Source: Stutzerimonas stutzeri
Lineage (GTDB): Bacteria; Pseudomonadota; Gammaproteobacteria; Pseudomonadales; Pseudomonadaceae
Assembly: GCF_013522825.1 (NCBI RefSeq)
Contig: NZ_JAAMQZ010000009.1
Coordinates: 62,001-126,000, forward strand
Length of the DNA stretch: 64,000 bases
Direction: 5' to 3'
Positions 3,810-63,618 of this stretch are shown here, piece by piece. Each line of letters begins with the position of its first letter. The stretch's first letter is position 1. The notes beneath the pieces were generated by a model that saw only the letters and a program-made list of their open reading frames with translations, made no database searches and had not been told where the DNA came from. Made by a program: the position numbers and the translations under genes.

Positions 3810-5001
<1,192 letters not shown>

Positions 5002-5047
5002 ATTGTTGCCCCACAGGGATAATCGAGTCTTTCAGCCAGGAGCCGAT

Positions 5048-5941
5048 ATGAATCGCTGGGAAGGTCTCGACGAGTTCGTCGCCGTCGCCGAATGCGGCAG
5101 CTTCATGCGTGCCGCCGAGCAATTGCGGGTGTCGTCTTCACACGTCAGCCGCCAGGTAGCCCGTCTCGAAGAGCGATTGCAGGCCCGCCTGCTCTACCGC
5201 ACCACTCGGCGCGTCTCGCTGACCGAGGCGGGACACACCTTCCTGGCACGCTGCCAGCGCCTGATCGAAGAACGCGACGAAGCCTTCCATGCCATCAGCG
5301 ACCTGCACACAGCCCCCACCGGGCTGCTGCGCATGACCGCCGCGGTGGCTTACGGCGAGCGCTTTATCGTCCCGCTGGTGAACGACTTCATGGCGCAACA
5401 TCCGCAGTTGCGGGTGGAAATAGACCTGTCCAACCGCACCCTGGACATGGTGCAGGAAGGCTTCGATCTGGCGATACGCCTGGGCCGCCTCGGCGAATCG
5501 CGGCTGGTGGCGACCCGCATCGCACCACGCGCCATGTACCTGTGTGCCGCGCCGGCCTATCTCGAACGCTACGGGCGTCCGCATACGCTGTCCGAACTGG
5601 CGCGGCACAACTGCCTGGTGGGCACCGGCGATACCTGGATGCTGCAGGTCGATGGCCGCGAGCAACCCTTCAAGCCCAGCGGTAACTGGCGCTGCAACAG
5701 CGGCCAAGCGGTGCTGGACGCAGCCCTGCGCGGTTTCGGTCTCTGCCAGTTGCCGGATTACTATGTGCAGGAGCCGCTGCGCCGGGGCGAGCTGGTTTCG
5801 CTGCTCGAAGCCCATCAGCCGCCCAATACCGCCGTCTGGGCCGTCTACCCGCAGCGTCGCTATCCACTGCCGAAGGTGCGCCTGCTGATCCAGGCACTGA
5901 AGGACGGCCTGGCCAGTCGTCCGGAATACCTGCGCACCTGA
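5048..5941 (+). CDS. gfnR: LysR-family regulator, probably GfnR (formaldehyde response)
   Basis: LysR-type transcription factor of 297 residues: N-terminal winged helix-turn-helix (about residues 1-60, with SFMRAAEQLRVSSSHVSRQV as recognition region) and a C-terminal substrate-binding domain starting near residue 90. The start at 5048 (MNRWEGLDEF) follows AGGAG; the longer reading frame from 4946 would overlap the adhC leader and has no good ribosome site. The gene is divergent from adhC-fghA, the arrangement described for GfnR in P. aeruginosa, where it is reported to induce these genes in response to formaldehyde. Identity as GfnR is from synteny; the LysR family call is certain. Confidence 0.82.
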   Translation: MNRWEGLDEFVAVAECGSFMRAAEQLRVSSSHVSRQVARLEERLQARLLYRTTRRVSLTEAGHTFLARCQRLIEERDEAFHAISDLHTAPTGLLRMTAAVAYGERFIVPLVNDFMAQHPQLRVEIDLSNRTLDMVQEGFDLAIRLGRLGESRLVATRIAPRAMYLCAAPAYLERYGRPHTLSELARHNCLVGTGDTWMLQVDGREQPFKPSGNWRCNSGQAVLDAALRGFGLCQLPDYYVQEPLRRGELVSLLEAHQPPNTAVWAVYPQRRYPLPKVRLLIQALKDGLASRPEYLRT

Positions 5942-6000
5942 ACCAGGCCGCCCTGAAACAATGTCTTACTGCCCGTGCGTCCGACTACCTGCTCGGGACA

Positions 6001-6028
6001 GGAACCCCCTTCCTGCAACTACGTCGTA
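6001..6028 (+). promoter_or_regulatory. Weak candidate ECF-sigma promoter upstream of the baeRF gene
   Basis: GAACCC (6002-6007), a 16-base spacer, then TCGTA (6024-6028) resembles the AlgU/RpoE consensus GAACTT-N16/17-TCTGA, with four of six and three of five matches. It would start transcription about 100 bases before the gene. The rest of the 192-base gap shows nothing else clear. Confidence 0.25.
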
Positions 6029-6133
6029 ACCAGTAACCAGTCCCTTCACCCGTTTTGATCGAAGTCGCTTCCGCGCACCGATCATCGGTACATCCCGCGA
6101 GGACCCCAACCACCCAAACGAACGAGGCCGTGC

Positions 6134-7300
6134 ATGAACAGACTGCTCGATAGTAAAACCCTCAATCAGTTGCTGGCCCAGCGTGAGGCCCCCTGCCTGT
6201 CCCTCTACCAGCCTACTCACCGCAGCTTTCCTGAGCGCCAACAGGACCCCATCCGCTTCAGGCATCTGGTTCGCCAGCTGGAAGACTCGCTCAGGCAACA
6301 GGGCTGGAACGGCCAGGCCGAGGCCCTGCTCCGCCCGTTTCTGGAACTGATGAATGATGCCGAATTCTGGAATCACAACCTGGACGGGTTGGCGGTGTTC
6401 GCTTGCCCCGGCTATTTCCAGTTCTTCCGGCTGCAGCGCGGCGTGCCGGAACTGGCCGTCGCCAATGACCGCATGCATGTCAAACCCCTGGTACGCATCG
6501 CGCAATCGGCGGATCGCTATCAGATTCTCTGTCTGTCACGCGACTCGGTACGCCTGCTGGGCGGCAACCGCGATGCGCTCGACGAGATTCCTTTGCACGA
6601 GAACGTCCCCCGCACGCTCGCCGAAGCCCTCGGCACCGAACTGACCGACAAGAGCCAGAGCGGTCTTTCGCAAGGCTATAGCCGCGCCAGCGAGAGAGGC
6701 GACGCCATGCAGGTCGAGGCAGGCGGCAGCGGCAAGCAGGCGGAAATCGACCGCGACCGCGATCGCTACTTCCGCGAGGTGGACCGAACCATTCTCGAAT
6801 ATCACTCGCGCCCCAGCGGTTTGCCGCTGATCCTGGCCGCACTGCCGGAGCAGCAGTCGCATTTCCGTCGCATCAGCCACAACGAGTACCTGCTGCCCGA
6901 AGGCATCGAGGTCGGCCAGGGCGCGCTGACGCTCAACGAGATCAGGGAAGACAGCTGGCTGGTGATGCAGCCGCGTTACCTGAAGCGGCTCGAAGGACTG
7001 ATCAACCAGTTCGGCACCTCCCACGGCAAAGGCCTGGCCTCGGATCAGCTGGAGGAAATCGGCCAGGCGGCGGTACAAGGCCGCGTGGCTACGTTGCTGG
7101 TGGAGGCCGAGCGGCAGATACCCGGTTGCGTCGACAAGACCGAAGGCAAGGCAACGCCGGCGGAAAATGGGGACGCGACAACGCCCGACCTGTTGGACGA
7201 ACTGACCATCTGGACTCTGGAGCAAGGTGGCGAGGTCATTGTCGTTCCGGTGGAACGAATGCCTACACAGAGCGGTGCGGCGGCGATCTATCGCTTCTGA
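6134..7300 (+). CDS. Bacterial archaeo-eukaryotic release factor (baeRF) family protein
   Basis: Protein of 388 residues that I recognise as a member of the baeRF group (family 3), bacterial relatives of the archaeal/eukaryotic peptide-release factor eRF1. The N-terminal PCLSLYQPTHRSFPE and DPIRFRHLVRQLE segment and the C-terminal region beginning around residue 280 (LVEAERQIPG) fit this family. Bacteria normally terminate translation with RF1/RF2, so baeRF proteins are thought to act on stalled ribosomes or under stress; none of this is shown here. It has no signal peptide or membrane segment. It is monocistronic: the LysR gene ends 192 bases before, and ispD is convergent 18 bases after. 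Confidence 0.7.
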   Translation: MNRLLDSKTLNQLLAQREAPCLSLYQPTHRSFPERQQDPIRFRHLVRQLEDSLRQQGWNGQAEALLRPFLELMNDAEFWNHNLDGLAVFACPGYFQFFRLQRGVPELAVANDRMHVKPLVRIAQSADRYQILCLSRDSVRLLGGNRDALDEIPLHENVPRTLAEALGTELTDKSQSGLSQGYSRASERGDAMQVEAGGSGKQAEIDRDRDRYFREVDRTILEYHSRPSGLPLILAALPEQQSHFRRISHNEYLLPEGIEVGQGALTLNEIREDSWLVMQPRYLKRLEGLINQFGTSHGKGLASDQLEEIGQAAVQGRVATLLVEAERQIPGCVDKTEGKATPAENGDATTPDLLDELTIWTLEQGGEVIVVPVERMPTQSGAAAIYRF

Positions 7301-8466: not shown

Positions 8467-12284
<3,818 letters not shown>

Positions 12285-56270: not shown

Positions 56271-57197
56271 ATGCGCAACCAGGCCCTTCGCGCCGACTTT
56301 CTGATGCTGATCACTGCGATGATCTGGGGTACCGGCTTTGTTGCGCAGCGGATCGGCATGGATAACATCGGTCCGTTCCTGTTCACCGGCCTGCGCTTCG
56401 CCTTGGGCGCCATGGTTCTGCTGCCGCTGCTGCTGCGCCAGGGCCGCGGCCCCACACGGCACGAACCCTTCCTCAAACGCAGCATGCTGCTGGGTGGCTT
56501 GTGCATGGGGCTCGCACTGACGCTGGGCATCAACCTGCAACAGGTCGGCCTGCTGTTCACCAGCGTGACCAACTCCGGCTTCATTACCGGACTCTACGTC
56601 ATCGTGGTGCCCCTGCTGGGGCTGATCATCGGTCAAAGAACCGGAATGGGCACCTGGCTGGGCGCGACCCTGGCGGTCGTGGGCATGGCGTTGCTGAGTA
56701 TCAGTGATGACTTCACGGTGGCTTCCGGCGACTGGATCCAGCTGGCCGGCGCCTTCGTCTGGGGTGTCCACGTCCTGCTGGTGAGCTTTTTCGTCGGTCG
56801 ACACGACGCCATTCGTCTGGCATTCGTGCAATTCGTCACCTGCGCGGTGGTGAGCCTGGCACTGGCGGCGCTGTTCGAGGAAACCAGCCTGAACAGCATC
56901 TGGCTGGCCGCGCCGGCACTCATCTATGGCGGCATGTTCGCCGTCGGCGTCGGCTACACGCTGCAGGTCGTCGCGCAGAAACATGCGATTGCCTCCCACG
57001 CGGCCATCATTCTTTCGCTCGAAGCGGTATTCGCGGCGATCGCCGGCGCGCTGTTTCTCGATGAAAGCCTCAGCCTGCGCGGTTATTTCGGCTGCGCCCT
57101 GATGTTCATCGGCATGCTCGCCGCCCAGCTCTGGCCACGCAAGCCGGCCCCGCCACTGACGGACAGCGACGTCATGCCAGCAGCATCTAAAACCTAG
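56271..57197 (+). CDS. EamA/DMT-family transporter
   Basis: Drug/metabolite transporter superfamily permease of 308 residues with about ten helices in two EamA repeats (about residues 8-140 and 152-290). LITAMIWGTGFVAQRIGM and LRFALGAMVLLPL are typical of the first repeat. Substrate unknown. I chose ATG 56271 (MRNQALRADF); the 19 residues before it are not hydrophobic or conserved. Its last 11 bases overlap the end of the DTW-domain gene, which converges on it. Confidence 0.9.
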   Translation: MRNQALRADFLMLITAMIWGTGFVAQRIGMDNIGPFLFTGLRFALGAMVLLPLLLRQGRGPTRHEPFLKRSMLLGGLCMGLALTLGINLQQVGLLFTSVTNSGFITGLYVIVVPLLGLIIGQRTGMGTWLGATLAVVGMALLSISDDFTVASGDWIQLAGAFVWGVHVLLVSFFVGRHDAIRLAFVQFVTCAVVSLALAALFEETSLNSIWLAAPALIYGGMFAVGVGYTLQVVAQKHAIASHAAIILSLEAVFAAIAGALFLDESLSLRGYFGCALMFIGMLAAQLWPRKPAPPLTDSDVMPAASKT

Positions 57198-57897
57198 CCG
57201 CCAGCATCCGATGGGCGGCATCGTCCAGACTGGGCGCGCGCTGATGCTTGGCCGCCAGATAGTGATCGGTGAAGACGTCGAGCCAGGCGTCCAGCGCAGT
57301 CGAGGCCTGGACATCACCCGCAAGCCCCAGACACAACGCCGCCACTTCGGCGGTACACAGATGTTCGCTGCGCGTGGAGCGTCTCAGTCGATAGCGCGAC
57401 AACACCTCGGCCTGCAGACTCAGCACCGGCAGGCGGTTCAGGTATGCACTCTTGCGAAACATCTTGCGCGCCTCGGTCCAGGTCGCATCGAGCAGGATGA
57501 ACAGTGGCCGCTTGCCCGTATCGACCTGAACCGTTTCGACCACGCGCTCAGGCGCGGCATACTCGCCGGGAAAGACCACGAACGGCTGGTATTGCGGATC
57601 GGCCAGCAATTCGATCAGCGCCGGTTCGACCGCCGTGCGCTGCCAGCCGAAGGCATGGGTATCAGCGACCACGTCGGCGATCAGCCAGCCGGTGTTGCTC
57701 GGCTTCAGCGGCTCGATATCGTGCATGATCAGGCATACCACACTGTGCGCCTCCACCTGCGGTAGCCAGGCGCACAGGCAGTGGCTGTCCCGGACACGAC
57801 AACGGACGCAGCGCGGAGCACGCGAGCCTCTGGCAATGAAGGGCTTGAGGCTGCGCTCAAGGCGCGCCTCGCGCAGACGGGCTACGGCATGGGGCAT
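57187..57897 (-). CDS. DTW-domain tRNA-uridine aminocarboxypropyltransferase
   Basis: Protein of 236 residues of the TapT/YfiP/DTWD family, which uses SAM to put the acp3 group on a tRNA uridine (U47 in E. coli). The DTW motif is DATWTEARKMF near residue 137. The N-terminal cysteines CVRCRVRDSHCLCAW form the expected metal-binding cluster, with NTGWLIADV and SEHLCTAEVAALCL also conserved. Overlaps the EamA gene by 11 bases tail to tail. Confidence 0.9.
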   Translation of the reverse strand: MPHAVARLREARLERSLKPFIARGSRAPRCVRCRVRDSHCLCAWLPQVEAHSVVCLIMHDIEPLKPSNTGWLIADVVADTHAFGWQRTAVEPALIELLADPQYQPFVVFPGEYAAPERVVETVQVDTGKRPLFILLDATWTEARKMFRKSAYLNRLPVLSLQAEVLSRYRLRRSTRSEHLCTAEVAALCLGLAGDVQASTALDAWLDVFTDHYLAAKHQRAPSLDDAAHRMLAARF

Positions 57898-58003
57898 GGG
57901 TATTGAAACGACTGAGGCTGCGAGTGGGCCGGCAGTCTAGCAAAGGGCAATGAACCGCGCAGGCAGCCATCGGTCGAACGACGGCAGTCATCAGGAGATC
58001 GCC

Positions 58004-58399
58004 ATGTACCGCACGACCGCTTTATTCACACTTTGTCTCGCCCTGCCCTTCAGCCACATCGCCGCGGCGCAGGAGCAGCAGACACTGACCCAACTGCTCG
58101 AAAAGGTCGCTCACGAAAGCAGCGTCGGCACGCCCCGCGCCATCAATGAAGACCTTCTTGACGAAGGCTACACCGTCGATGGCAACGAGCTGGTCAACCA
58201 CCTGAGCGTCCGACCACGTCATGCCGCGCAGATGCGCGACAACCCCCAGCAGGTCCGTAGCCAACTGGCATCGAGCGTGTGCAATAACGACGGCCTGCGC
58301 CAGTTGATGGCCCAGGGTGCCGTGCTGCGCTTCGAGTTCAACGAATACCAGAGCAAGAAGCCGATCACCCGCGAGCGCTACCGCGCCAGCGACTGCTAG
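58004..58399 (+). CDS. Small secreted protein, QSregVF/PA3611-like
   Basis: Exported protein of 131 residues with a signal peptide (MYRTTALFTLCLALPF, cleavage near AAAQ). The mature part, with ESSVGTPRAINEDLLDEGY and CNNDGLRQLMAQGAVLRFEF, resembles P. aeruginosa PA3611, the founder of a Pfam family labelled putative quorum-sensing-regulated virulence factor. Two cysteines (in SVCNND and at the C-terminal Cys) could form a disulfide. Role unknown; the virulence label should not be taken over without evidence. ATG 58004 has AGGAG six bases upstream. Confidence 0.8.
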   Translation: MYRTTALFTLCLALPFSHIAAAQEQQTLTQLLEKVAHESSVGTPRAINEDLLDEGYTVDGNELVNHLSVRPRHAAQMRDNPQQVRSQLASSVCNNDGLRQLMAQGAVLRFEFNEYQSKKPITRERYRASDC

Positions 58400-58453: not shown

Positions 58454-60859
58454 TTAGCGCAGCACGTCTGGATCACCTTTACCAGCCACGGCAGCGGCCT
58501 CGTCGGCCTTGAGCAGCGCCGTGCGCGGCATACCCAGCAGCCGTGCGCAGGCGGCCAGCACGTTCGCCCAAGAGGCACGGTTGGCGAACTGCATGCCCGC
58601 TTCGTCCAACGTCCCGCCCCGATTGCGATAACCCAGCACCGAGCTGCAACGCGCATCCGGCAAGATGGGCCAGAGATGGCCACGCAGCACCTCGGGGCGC
58701 ATGTGCGTCAGCATGACCCTAAGCGCCATCCGTTCGGGAAACAGTCGCTCGCTGACGCCATCTGCCGCCAGCGCATCGATTTCCCAGCGGTCGCGCGGTG
58801 CGCGGAAACGCCCCGGTTCCTGTAGATAAACCAGTCGATAGGCGACACCCGCCTCCTTCAGACGCAGCGCCGCCCGCTGCATTTCGCTCAGTTGGTAACT
58901 GCCGTTGGCGATCAGCAGGACGGGGCTGTCGCCGATCTGTTCATCGACGACGATCGCGCCATCCCTGGCCAACTGCTCGGCCTGATCGCGATTGAAGAAC
59001 CCCGGTCGATCCCGCTTGGGCATCACCAGGCAGGCCAGCTCACCTCGTGCCTGATAGATCGATGGCAGCAGCGCCAGGGCACTGTTGTGGTCGGCGGGAA
59101 AGAGCACCCGCACCATATCGTTCATTTCTCCCAGCAGCGCCTCGCAGAAGGTGGTGTCCTGATGGGATTGCTGATTCTTGCCATTTTCCCAGGTGTGCGA
59201 CGTCGCGATCAGCGGCCAGCCGAGCCAGCCAGCCGGGCGACCGACTTCCTTCTGCTGACGCGAGAAGATCAGGGACTGGCGCACCGCGCCGAGCATCTTC
59301 ACGCAGAACGCTTCGTAGCTGGCCACCAGGTTGAGCCCGCCCTGGTTGGCCAGGCAGGCGGAAACCACGGCCTCTTCGTTGAGTGCGGTAATGATCTGGC
59401 CATCGACCGCCTCAAGCTCGCTTTCCGGGTCGATCACACGATGCTTGAGCGCCCTGAGCACGCCACCCAGGCGGTTGCTGGCAAGCTCGTCGGGGTTGCC
59501 GACACGCGGGCGCAGCGACGGATTGGCCCGGGTCAGCGCCACGAAGAAATCATCGACCGCCGTCATGGGCGAGCAGCTGTCATCGCGATAGTTGAGTGCC
59601 GGCATCGTCGGCTCGTCGGGGTGACGTCGCGCCAGCGCATTGTCGCGCTCCAGTGGACGTCCCTGGCGGTGCTTGAGCAGCAATTCACGCGCGGCGCGCA
59701 GCTCGTCCTGCGGGACGAACAGTGGTGCGACGTGCTCGTTGAACAGATCGCGTGAAACCTCGTCCCGGGACGGATTGCCCGGCAGCGGCAGGTTGTGCGA
59801 GGCATTGCTGCCGGCGCCATAGAAACCGAAGCCCTTCACCGTCTCGGCGATACCGTAGGGAATGGGCAACGGGTAGTTGAGAATGCCCCGCTCCTTTTCC
59901 TCGACGCGCCTGGCCAGGCGCTGCTCCATCTCCCACAGCATGCAGACGAAGGCAGCCGGATCGCGACCATCGAAAAGAACCGGATCGAAGCCGCAGCCAC
60001 TCAGATGCTGGCGGAACCCTGCCAATCCCTCATCGGTGCCGAGCTGGGTGCGCTGCTCGATGCGCCGGCCATTGGCAATCATGATCGGCAGCGCCATGCC
60101 GCAATCCTCGGCCCGCCACCAGCGTGGAATCCAGTCACTGCCGCGCTGCTCTTCAGCCGCGCCGTCCGAAAGAAAGGCCACCAGCGTTTCGCCCGGCAGC
60201 GGCATGTGCGCGTACTGCAATTCGGCGAAGCCAAGATAGCCGCCTTCGGCTATTCCACCGGCGGTATGCGGATTGACGTGACTGCCCAGCGGCGCGGCAG
60301 GGCTGCCATCAGGCGCGAGGTGATAGCCGTAGAAATCCTGGAGCAGGCGATTGATGCCCGCCTCACCGCCACCATAGGCCTGTGCCTGCTCGGGATGCAG
60401 GTTGTCGGTGAGCAGGTTCAGCGCTTCGATTGCCGCCACGCAATGGCCCTGCCCCATCAGCCAGGCGCGGGTTGTTCCTGTCAGGGCATTGAGCCCCAGG
60501 TAGCCGGCATAGGCCGGGACCATGTTCAGCGAACCGCCCGTATGCCCCTCGGGGGAGGGCTTGAAATCCTCGGCTGCCAGCGGCGAGCCATCGAGTCGGA
60601 CCTGACGCGCATAAGTCATGTGCACCACCAGCCAGAGCCCCGCAGAACTCAGCCGGTCGATGGCCTGCAGCAGGCGATACACGCTGGCAAGATCCTCCTG
60701 CAAACCAGCCTGGACCAATTGGTGGGCCAGACGAAAAACCGCCGCCTGGGTTTCCAGTGAATGCTCGAACGGACCATAACCGGCTCGCCAGACGCCAAAT
60801 TCCGGTTGAAGTTCGGCGTGGCGGTCCATTTCGGCAAGACTGGGCAGTAGTTGATTCAT
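58454..60859 (-). CDS. Divergent phosphoketolase-family TPP enzyme
   Basis: Protein of 801 residues with the phosphoketolase (Xfp) layout of N-terminal, middle and C-terminal domains and clear family segments: GHTGGSLNMVPAYAGYLGL (about 106-124), MGQGH (135-139), GSHVNPHTAGGIAEGGYLG (192-210), SYEAF (514-518) and SHQD (565-568). Classical enzymes split xylulose 5-phosphate or fructose 6-phosphate to acetyl phosphate. Several hallmark motifs differ here: GDGEAETGP is SDGAAEEQR, GPGHGGP is GQGHCVA, and HNGFSHQD is GKNQQSHQD. The reaction may therefore differ; some databases, as I recall, name such proteins xylulose 5-phosphate 3-epimerase. Divergent from the MBL gene, with an FNR/Anr-like box between. 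Confidence 0.8.
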   Translation of the reverse strand: MNQLLPSLAEMDRHAELQPEFGVWRAGYGPFEHSLETQAAVFRLAHQLVQAGLQEDLASVYRLLQAIDRLSSAGLWLVVHMTYARQVRLDGSPLAAEDFKPSPEGHTGGSLNMVPAYAGYLGLNALTGTTRAWLMGQGHCVAAIEALNLLTDNLHPEQAQAYGGGEAGINRLLQDFYGYHLAPDGSPAAPLGSHVNPHTAGGIAEGGYLGFAELQYAHMPLPGETLVAFLSDGAAEEQRGSDWIPRWWRAEDCGMALPIMIANGRRIEQRTQLGTDEGLAGFRQHLSGCGFDPVLFDGRDPAAFVCMLWEMEQRLARRVEEKERGILNYPLPIPYGIAETVKGFGFYGAGSNASHNLPLPGNPSRDEVSRDLFNEHVAPLFVPQDELRAARELLLKHRQGRPLERDNALARRHPDEPTMPALNYRDDSCSPMTAVDDFFVALTRANPSLRPRVGNPDELASNRLGGVLRALKHRVIDPESELEAVDGQIITALNEEAVVSACLANQGGLNLVASYEAFCVKMLGAVRQSLIFSRQQKEVGRPAGWLGWPLIATSHTWENGKNQQSHQDTTFCEALLGEMNDMVRVLFPADHNSALALLPSIYQARGELACLVMPKRDRPGFFNRDQAEQLARDGAIVVDEQIGDSPVLLIANGSYQLSEMQRAALRLKEAGVAYRLVYLQEPGRFRAPRDRWEIDALAADGVSERLFPERMALRVMLTHMRPEVLRGHLWPILPDARCSSVLGYRNRGGTLDEAGMQFANRASWANVLAACARLLGMPRTALLKADEAAAVAGKGDPDVLR

Positions 60860-60917
60860 GAGGTCGCTCCATAACTTGGCGGTTGCGGTAGTCTAGACAG
60901 CACTCGCCCGGCTATCG

Positions 60918-60931
60918 CTGATATGTATCAA
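60918..60931. promoter_or_regulatory. FNR/Anr-type box in the shared divergent promoter
   Basis: CTGAT-ATGT-ATCAA matches the Anr/Dnr/FNR consensus TTGAT-N4-ATCAA at nine of ten positions. Its centre (60924.5) is 41.5 bases from a start site near 60883 implied by a minus-strand TAGACT (60895-60890) for the phosphoketolase-family gene. On the plus strand CATTCT (60954-60959) could be the matching -10 for the MBL gene. Confidence 0.6.
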
Positions 60932-60988
60932 GACACGAAGCCTGGGTAGCGGGCATTCTGGAGTTCATCGTATAGACAGGAACCTACC

Positions 60989-62398
60989 ATGGCTTTGCTC
61001 AGTTTCTTCGGCGCCGTTCAGCAGGTCACCGGCTCATGCTATCTGATAGAGACTCATGACGGGGTTCGCGTTCTGCTCGATTGCGGCATGCATCAGGGGC
61101 GACGCAAGGACGAAGAAGGCAACCGGGCGGCCTTCCCCTTCGATCCGAAAAGTCTGAACGCCGTGGTCCTGTCGCATGCTCACATCGACCATAGCGGCCT
61201 GCTGCCCAAGCTTGTTGCCGAGGGTTTCAAAGGTCCGATCCATGCAACCGATGCGACCTGCAAACTGCTCGAACTGATGCTGTTCGATTCGGCGCATATC
61301 CAGGAAAAGGACGCCGAGTGGGAAAACAAGTGGCGGGCACGCCTGGGCAAGCCGCCGATCAAGCCGCTCTACACCCGAATCGATACCGAGCGCATGCTCA
61401 CACAGCGCCAGGCGCAATCCTACGGCGAACCTTTCGAGGCGGCACCAGGCGTCACCGTGACCTTCCACGATGCCGGTCACATTCTCGGCTCGGCCATCGT
61501 CCAGACGGATGTTACGGACTTCGGGCGCACACGCCGCCTGGTGTTTTCCGGCGACCTGGGTAACGCCTGCTCGCCTCTGATGCACGAACCCGCGACATTG
61601 AGCGAAGCCGACGTGGTACTGATGGAGTCCACCTACGGCGACCGTGATCACCGCGACCATCAGACGACCATCGAAGAACTAGCCGACATCCTGCAGCAGG
61701 CTCACCGGGATGGCGGCAATGTGCTGATGCCCTCCTTCGCCGTCGGTCGCACGCAGGATCTGATCTACTATCTCGGCCTGCTCTATCAACAGGGTCGCCT
61801 GCCGCAACAGGCGGTATTCCTCGACAGCCCCATGGCCATCGGCGCGAACGCCATCTATTCACTGTTCCAGGAGCAACTGGACATCGCTGGTGTCCAGCCG
61901 GGCGATCCGAACGGCAATGGCAGGCAACGCATCGAAAAGTGGCTGCCAATCCTCAAGAGCACGCCCAGCGCGGAAGAGTCGATGACCATCAACCGCTTCA
62001 AGAGCGGCGTCATCATCATCGCCGGTAGCGGCATGTGTAACGGCGGGCGCATCCTGCATCACTTCAAGCACAACCTCTGGCGCAAGGAGTGCCACCTGGT
62101 CATTCCGGGCTTCCAGGCGCGTGGCACTCTGGGCAGGACCATTGTCGACGGCGCGCAGACCGTCAAGCTGCTGCATCAGCGCATCGCGGTGAATGCCCAG
62201 GTCCATACGCTCGGCGGCTTCTCCGCGCATGCCGGGCAATCCCAGTTGATCGACTGGGTCAGCCATTTCAAATCCCGCCCCGAATTGCATCTGATACACG
62301 GCGAACTGGAGAAAATGCAGGTACTGCAGAAGGCGCTGGACGAGCGACTGGACTGGCAGGCCAATATTCCCGAACCCGGTGACCGTATCGCACTCTGA
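60989..62398 (+). CDS. MBL-fold beta-CASP RNA-metabolising protein
   Basis: Metallo-beta-lactamase/beta-CASP family protein of 469 residues, related to CPSF73-like and RNase J-type nucleases. The zinc motif is SHAHIDHSGLLPKL near residue 62; other ligands lie in FHDAGHILGSA and FSGDLGN; the beta-CASP domain has MESTYGDRDHRD and PSFAVGRTQDLIYYL; the C-terminal GGFSAHAGQSQLIDW and LIHGE are conserved. Probably an endo- or exoribonuclease, substrate unknown. It is divergent from the phosphoketolase-family gene and followed by the LOG gene 128 bases later. Confidence 0.92.
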   Translation: MALLSFFGAVQQVTGSCYLIETHDGVRVLLDCGMHQGRRKDEEGNRAAFPFDPKSLNAVVLSHAHIDHSGLLPKLVAEGFKGPIHATDATCKLLELMLFDSAHIQEKDAEWENKWRARLGKPPIKPLYTRIDTERMLTQRQAQSYGEPFEAAPGVTVTFHDAGHILGSAIVQTDVTDFGRTRRLVFSGDLGNACSPLMHEPATLSEADVVLMESTYGDRDHRDHQTTIEELADILQQAHRDGGNVLMPSFAVGRTQDLIYYLGLLYQQGRLPQQAVFLDSPMAIGANAIYSLFQEQLDIAGVQPGDPNGNGRQRIEKWLPILKSTPSAEESMTINRFKSGVIIIAGSGMCNGGRILHHFKHNLWRKECHLVIPGFQARGTLGRTIVDGAQTVKLLHQRIAVNAQVHTLGGFSAHAGQSQLIDWVSHFKSRPELHLIHGELEKMQVLQKALDERLDWQANIPEPGDRIAL

Positions 62399-62526
62399 TG
62401 GGAGCGCAGATCACCTCGTCTCACCACCGGAGCGCATTCCACGCTGGTCGCAGCGCTTCTTCAGTCATCAGCAGATTGCTCAGCCACAGACCGGCTGACA
62501 CAGATATACGTCAAGGGAGCCCCTGC

Positions 62527-63618
62527 ATGCCGTTTGAAACGGACGATTATCTTTCACGCCACTTCAAGACCAGCGGCGCGGACCTGTCGAAAAAGATAGA
62601 CGAGCTGGTCGAACTGGTCATACCGGCCACCAGTCAGAACCTGCCCCTCTACCGGGAGATGCTGGTCACCGTGATCCGGATGGCGCAAGCGGACCGCAAC
62701 CGCTGGGATGCCAAGATCCTGCTGCAGACCATGCGCGAAATGGAACATGCCTTCGGCGTGCTCGACCGCTTCAAGCGACGCCGCAAGGTGACCGTCTTCG
62801 GCTCTGCACGCACCCCCATCGAACATCCGCTGTACGCGCTGGCACGGGAGCTGGGCGCAAACCTGGCGCGACACGACCTGATGGTCATCACTGGCGCTGG
62901 CGGCGGCATCATGGCCGCCGCGCATGAGGGCGCCGGCACGGACAACAGCCTGGGACTGAACATCACCCTGCCCTTCGAGCAGCATGCCAATCCGACCGTG
63001 GGCGGCACTGACCGGCTGCTGTCATTTCATTTCTTCTTCGTGCGCAAACTCTTTTTTATCAAGGAAGCCGACGCGCTGGTTCTTTGCCCCGGCGGCTTCG
63101 GCACGCTGGACGAAGCATTGGAAGTATTGACCCTGATCCAGACCGGCAAGAGTCCGTTGGTGCCTATCGTGCTGCTGGACGAACCCGGCGGTACGTTCTG
63201 GAAGGACGCCCTGAGCTTCATGCGCCACCAACTGCAGGACAATCGCTACATTCTGCCCAGCGACATGCACCTGGTACGCCTGGTCGACAATGCCGAGGAT
63301 GCTGCCAGAGAGATCGACACCTTCTACAGCAATTTCCACTCAAGCCGCTGGGTGAAAGACCGCTTCGTCATGCGCATGAACCATGTGCTGACCGATGCCG
63401 CACTCGACTTCATGAACCGGGAGTTCGCCGACCTGTACCTGCAAGGCCGCTTCGAGCAACAGGCCTGCTGCGAAATGGAACTGGATGAGCCCGAACTGCA
63501 ACGGCTGCCGCGCCTGAGCTTTGCATTCAATGGCCGCGACCACGGTCGCCTGCGCGAACTGACCGATTTCATCAATGAAGAACGCAACTGGGCGGCCCCG
63601 CTGGGCGCGCAGGATTGA
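62527..63618 (+). CDS. LOG-family (TIGR00730/PpnN-like) protein
   Basis: Protein of 363 residues with a Rossmann-type LOG domain at about residues 90-270: VFGSARTPIEHP, ITGAGGGIMAAAHEGA and the family signature CPGGFGTLDEALEVL. LOG proteins hydrolyse nucleoside 5'-monophosphates to base and ribose 5-phosphate; they are often mislabelled lysine decarboxylase. The N-terminal helical extension (about 85 residues) and C-terminal extension are as in larger members. I chose ATG 62527 (MPFETDDYLSRHF), with GGGAG upstream; the frame before it, from 62398, is not conserved. Likely co-regulated with the MBL gene. Confidence 0.88.
   Translation: MPFETDDYLSRHFKTSGADLSKKIDELVELVIPATSQNLPLYREMLVTVIRMAQADRNRWDAKILLQTMREMEHAFGVLDRFKRRRKVTVFGSARTPIEHPLYALARELGANLARHDLMVITGAGGGIMAAAHEGAGTDNSLGLNITLPFEQHANPTVGGTDRLLSFHFFFVRKLFFIKEADALVLCPGGFGTLDEALEVLTLIQTGKSPLVPIVLLDEPGGTFWKDALSFMRHQLQDNRYILPSDMHLVRLVDNAEDAAREIDTFYSNFHSSRWVKDRFVMRMNHVLTDAALDFMNREFADLYLQGRFEQQACCEMELDEPELQRLPRLSFAFNGRDHGRLRELTDFINEERNWAAPLGAQD

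Follow-up and report, generated by a model that had tools for sequence, protein, structure and literature searches.

A single FNR/Anr/Dnr-type box lies between two oppositely read genes in the 64,000-nucleotide stretch of Stutzerimonas stutzeri DNA analysed here (the window), with a phosphoketolase-family (XFP-like) gene on one side and an MBL/β-CASP ribonuclease gene, followed by a LOG-family gene, on the other. Comparison of related sequences shows an architecture in which two divergent predicted class II promoters flank this one central box. Both genes are very probably activated through the box by a regulator that responds to low oxygen or to nitrogen-oxide signals. We lean towards a whole explanation in which one box and two class II promoters activate both genes and the products form one route from RNA to ATP, although the individual parts of this explanation are held with differing confidence.

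One box flanked by two predicted class II promoters

The box, CTGATATGTATCAA, occupies positions 60918–60931 (centre 60924.5, no strand assigned) inside the 129-base gap at 60860–60988 that separates the XFP-like and MBL genes. A check of the sequence confirmed the first-pass annotation, which had placed a box here with nine of ten bases of the consensus TTGATNNNNATCAA; a single base is mismatched. Matches to TTGATNNNNATCAA with at most one mismatch occur five times across the window against 1.32 expected, and 0.19% of shuffled gaps contain a match as good as CTGATATGTATCAA. The genome holding the window (5.0 Mb) contains 171 boxes compared with 17 for the reversed pattern, a suggestive excess over a control of different composition.

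The box is conserved among relatives. A first set comprised 87 loci from 87 genomes, 74 with a divergent MBL start and 13 without, and with each genome contributing a single gap, the 74 divergent XFP/MBL gaps represent 70 distinct sequences from eight genera. A box with at most two mismatches is present in 67 of these 74 gaps compared with 3.1% of shuffled gaps. Conservation in related species was one of the checks that the first-pass annotation had proposed, and because the box passes it we take the match as real rather than as the luck of a whole-window scan. The best box has one mismatch in 45 gaps, two in 22, three in 6 and four in 1. Among 63 distinct gaps preselected for at most two mismatches, a choice that itself favours the box, the inner half-site columns reach 1.96–2.0 bits and most flanking columns stay below 0.8. 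A second, overlapping set of 80 loci includes 79 with a divergent MBL gene (74 distinct gaps), and a box with at most two mismatches is found in 75 of these 79. The closest named relative identified, Stutzerimonas stutzeri V81, encodes an XFP-like protein 93% identical to that of the window. Across the family (119 genomes, read by hand and uncorrected for kinship), an MBL protein of at least about 50% identity occurs in 61 of 64 genomes with XFP and in 9 of 55 without it. In Pseudomonas sp. HMWF032 (G118; L101/L211), the MBL gene contains in-frame stops, the box has three mismatches and the XFP gene is open; in G119, one of the seven gaps with more than two mismatches, the XFP gene is split into two pieces, with a stop.

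Each side of the box carries a −10-like hexamer at the same distance. On the minus strand, TAGACT (60895–60890) starts 29.5 bases from the box centre, from which we infer an XFP transcription start near 60883 with the box centred at −41.5. FNR-activated E. coli promoters are described as favouring −41.5, with 19 of 23 lying within 4 bases of it (PMC3688515). On the plus strand, CATTCT (60954–60959) begins 29.5 bases from the centre, the mirror position of TAGACT, and implies a probable MBL transcription start near 60966. The class II spacing that the first-pass annotation had noted for TAGACT is borne out, as the pattern NANNNT is kept on the XFP side of 66 of 67 box-bearing gaps; the single promoter in that account was incomplete, with the second, MBL-side promoter at CATTCT missed. 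NANNNT stands 28–30 bases from the box centre on the MBL side of 54 of the 67 gaps and on both sides of 53, compared with 129 of 1,198 background windows (10.8%), all −10 counts being counts of sequences from gaps that are related to each other. In the second set, the number of loci with NANNNT exactly 29 bases from the centre is 51 for XFP and 65 for MBL, and at offsets other than 28–30 the 79 loci give a median of 1 (XFP) and 2 (MBL) and a maximum of 15 and 19. A sigma-70-like scan of 60700–62700 returned no match, and the same scan also misses both class II promoters. As a candidate second control site between the MBL and LOG genes, the best box has three mismatches, at 62501.

The three proteins and a candidate route from RNA to ATP

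The XFP-like gene (58454–60859, minus strand) encodes 801 amino acids with XFP_N and XFP domains that score 51 and 142 bits, above the Pfam cut-offs. Against the NCBIfam phosphoketolase models the protein falls below every cut-off listed, its best score being 144 bits compared with 777, and for this reason we label it phosphoketolase-like only; as judged from its sequence, it is a separate phosphoketolase subfamily. An alignment to 3ahc, read by eye, gives identities at H106, H139, H194, H355, H566, E495, S461, R463 and K615, positions that we take to be catalytic and phosphate-binding. In its Pfam domains, and at most of the putative active-site positions that align, the protein matches the Xfp phosphoketolases (3ahc, 3ai7 and others); it differs from them in its distance below the NCBIfam cut-off and in its pocket, where N559 and K561 replace the Gln and His of the solved enzymes. 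The AlphaFold model of XFP was set aside, as its mean pLDDT is 65.9 and values under 50 prevail through much of the active-site region. A DTW-domain gene (57187–57897, minus strand) and a QSregVF-family (PF13652) gene (57950–58399, plus strand) are the neighbours of XFP at its 3′ end.

Both genes on the other side of the box are read from the plus strand. The MBL gene (60989–62398, 469 amino acids) encodes Beta-Casp, RMMBL and Lactamase_B Pfam domains, and the closest solved relative of its product is Ribonuclease TTHA0252, with a full-length match (E = 1.1e-87). The protein has the same domains as the TTHA0252 family, from which it differs by its low-oxygen setting, and its RNase activity is predicted. 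A second MBL/β-CASP gene lies elsewhere in the same genome (G000:C54:7829-9181), its product 35% identical to that of the window gene. The LOG-family (nucleotide phosphoribohydrolase-like) gene is assigned to 62527–63618; its open frame begins at 62398 and the start is probably the second Met, at 62527. Its product belongs to PF03641, carries the motif PGGFGTLDE and has 5wq3 as its closest solved relative. PGGxGTxxE is described as the LOG motif, and type II LOGs are reported to convert AMP to adenine and ribose 5-phosphate, with AMP hydrolysis slow in vitro (PMC5379747). Like the type II proteins 5wq3 and 1wek, the window LOG combines this motif with an extension before the domain; it differs in being longer at the C-terminal side, and its substrate is putative.

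Together these proteins suggest how RNA ribose could serve as an emergency fuel without need of oxygen. A regulator armed by low oxygen or nitrogen-oxide signals would switch on both promoters from one Anr/Dnr-type box; the MBL/β-CASP RNase would then break down RNA, LOG would release ribose 5-phosphate and the free base from nucleoside monophosphates, and housekeeping isomerases would yield xylulose 5-phosphate. Cleavage of xylulose 5-phosphate by the XFP enzyme would give glyceraldehyde 3-phosphate along with acetyl phosphate, from which acetate kinase would make ATP. That the switched-on genes form one such route, from RNA through nucleotides, pentose phosphate and acetyl phosphate to ATP, is a plausible reading that we advance tentatively. 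AckA is encoded in the same genome, and its 4.1-kb locus contains no box match better than three mismatches, so the ackA step would need other control. A search for an AMP phosphorylase elsewhere in this genome gave one weak match only (E = 4.7e-5), which was rejected and makes LOG the candidate for the AMP step. A full-length AMP-phosphorylase-like gene (E < 1e-120) is present in 8 of 36 other same-genus genomes searched (G005, G006, G012, G018, G021, G026, G030 and G032); all eight have LOG, and the two genes are therefore not exclusive. Among the open-licence papers that literature searches listed, none presents itself as linking these genes in one pathway.

Gene neighbourhoods outside the family (Pseudomonadaceae) point in the same direction. 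We considered all 29 loci of this phosphoketolase subfamily listed from class, phylum and order searches (321, 398 and 299 genomes, with differing cut-offs); when 337 more genomes were searched, the one outside locus obtained was already among the 29. Within about 7–8 kb of XFP (less at contig ends), with genes called by similarity and Pfam or NCBIfam checks made on part of the neighbours, acetate kinase is found at 22 of the 29 loci plus one partial, an AMP-phosphorylase-like gene at 19, a PRPP-synthetase-like gene at 19, an MBL/β-CASP RNase at 18 and LOG at 1. The full set of XFP, MBL, phosphorylase, PRPP-synthetase-like and AckA genes occurs at 14 of 29 loci, and three loci (L231, L244 and L245) are without any partner. 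At L290, genes for LOG, AckA, XFP and MBL follow each other in this order and with the same orientation, and the phosphorylase pair is absent. The LOG of the window may do the step done elsewhere by that pair. Three phosphorylases that were checked pass archaeal-type phosphorylase models and score below the AMP phosphorylase cut-off (470–490 compared with 535 bits), so that AMP is a putative substrate for them. At L244 and L245, XFP overlaps the end of a 918-amino-acid open reading frame (4234–6990 and 9369–12125, respectively) that resembles a cation-transporting P-type ATPase by eye. The common purpose that the first-pass annotation had proposed for these genes is strengthened by the neighbourhoods in other lineages, and we continue to infer it. 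With more reserve, the loci may reflect a widespread, undescribed low-oxygen RNA-to-ATP pathway, placed in Pseudomonadaceae under one FNR-type dimer acting on two mirror class II promoters. It is possible to the same degree that the nucleotide-to-pentose-phosphate step of that pathway falls to LOG here and to AMP-phosphorylase-like and PRPP-synthetase-like proteins elsewhere.

The box might instead serve both genes while nothing but a common hypoxia or stress signal unites them, with no joint pathway, and we give this a chance of roughly one in three. XFP would then make acetyl phosphate from any sugar phosphate, and MBL and LOG would attend to RNA and nucleotide housekeeping. The outside loci have further stress-type genes nearby, for example a universal-stress-like open reading frame at L234 and an Hsp20-like one at L290 (both named by eye), which fit such a signal, as do LOG and XFP partners that differ from lineage to lineage. 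However, it is RNase, nucleotide-cleaving and acetyl-phosphate-using genes that recur near XFP, with all five together at 14 of 29 loci, and this recurrence weighs against a signal alone.

Unlinked genes and lineages without the box

Lineages in which the two genes are no longer neighbours indicate how many genes the box serves. In genus g26, the XFP and MBL genes lie apart from each other. All six unlinked MBL genes tested have their own box (1–3 mismatches) with CATAAT, CATACT or AATACT at 29 bases. Of the seven unlinked XFP genes, six carry a box of their own (1–3 mismatches) with a −10 at 28–29, and the seventh (L104) has its box at a distance of 247 bases. Among other MBL genes without an adjacent XFP, three keep both box and −10 (two in g36 genomes, one in a g40 genome) and three have no box (two in g28 genomes, one in a g32 genome). 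The −10 at L130 is CAAGCT, at 29. Because most unlinked copies carry their own box, each gene appears to be targeted independently, with one box in the window serving both. The first-pass annotation had treated the box as common to XFP and MBL, and the mirror-image −10 elements and the separate boxes of unlinked genes both support that view.

It is improbable that the box drives XFP alone, with MBL and LOG under another promoter. Such an arrangement would account for the steadier −10 on the XFP side (66/67 compared with 54/67) and for the exceptions, which track lineage: in g31 and g39 the gaps have an MBL-side −10 at 28–30 in 0 of 7 and 1 of 6 cases, and another regulator, PA3973, affects PA3614, the level of which is reported to fall on PA3973 overproduction (PMC9736018). 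Yet of the 12 MBL genes that lack a neighbouring XFP, 9 retain the box and a −10 at 28–29, and the peak for the MBL-side hexamer falls precisely at 29 bases (65 of 79 loci), as expected if the box serves both genes. A chance match without function, although one-mismatch matches are expected about once per 64 kb, is barely credible and was rejected on conservation (67 of 74 gaps compared with 3.1% of shuffled gaps, over eight genera) and on retention of the box after unlinking.

More distant loci show where the arrangement ends. Four diverged XFPs (52–56% identity) have no box within two mismatches, and in three of these four genomes the MBL gene has merely a three-mismatch site 79–82 bases out. 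At L139 (G138), an XFP of 56% identity is followed by a same-strand MBL of 37–38% identity, with no box of at most two mismatches before XFP. In two genomes of another family of the same order (L244 and L245; XFP 67% identical), a box is followed at 29 bases by TATAAT, 67 bases before the XFP start, and one further outside locus has a perfect box with TAGGCT at 29 bases; most of the 29 loci outside the family have no box within one mismatch before the cluster. Loss of Anr was ruled out as the cause of box loss, as Anr is present in 18 of 18 genomes tested, including those without the box. In two genomes of the same genus as the window, G025 (L119) and G017 (L121), MBL is mostly or wholly lost and LOG, XFP, the box and the XFP −10 are kept.

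The regulator and known divergent promoters

In the genome holding the window there is a gene for an Anr-like protein whose cysteines cluster near the N terminus, and two further CRP/FNR proteins have a recognition helix similar to that of the Anr-like protein; we take the recognition helix and N-terminal cysteines to be marks of an Anr-like regulator. In P. aeruginosa PA7, XFP (78%), MBL (70%) and LOG (74%) genes lie together with a two-mismatch box and a longer MBL leader, and on the basis of this locus and of names we treat PA3613 and PA3614 as the orthologs. Both P. aeruginosa genes are listed as up at low oxygen, with the Anr column blank (PMC8575079, Table 1), and a second table, citing Trunk 2010, gives PA3614 as ‘Anr regulated? 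No’ (PMC13086522, Table 1). Dnr-type proteins are described as using the same site as Anr (PMC6588701). A PA3613 transposon mutant is reported to have mild or no effects in virulence models, in assays that say little on oxygen (PMC4676916). The first-pass proposal of low-oxygen control by Anr thus divides: low-oxygen induction of PA3613 and PA3614 is in print, and the tables partly contradict Anr as the factor. Anr dependence of the gene pair is putative and in part contradicted, and because a published table lists PA3614 as not Anr-regulated, the acting activator may be Anr or another regulator.

Promoters sharing one dimer have precedents. To judge by its title, the work of El-Robh and Busby (2002) reportedly concerns divergent promoters that CRP activates from one target; it resembles the window in having one CRP/FNR-family dimer for promoters on both sides, whereas that system is, again by title, CRP in E. 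coli, and the window has an FNR-type box between two genes whose pairing is natural and conserved. One Anr-type box between oppositely read genes, as in the window, is also described for qor/hemF and cioA/PA3931, in an article whose main text does not name PA3613, PA3614 or PA3615 (Tribelli 2019, PMC6588701). The XFP/MBL gap would add a natural, conserved case of one FNR-type dimer probably driving two class II promoters, for which lineages with a split gene pair serve as natural controls. A testable reason is also offered for the joint low-oxygen induction of an RNase, a nucleotide-cleaving LOG and a phosphoketolase, namely that RNA ribose would fuel respiration-free ATP production. If true, this would assign a function to gene families that have been little studied and help to explain how denitrifiers and their relatives survive without oxygen.
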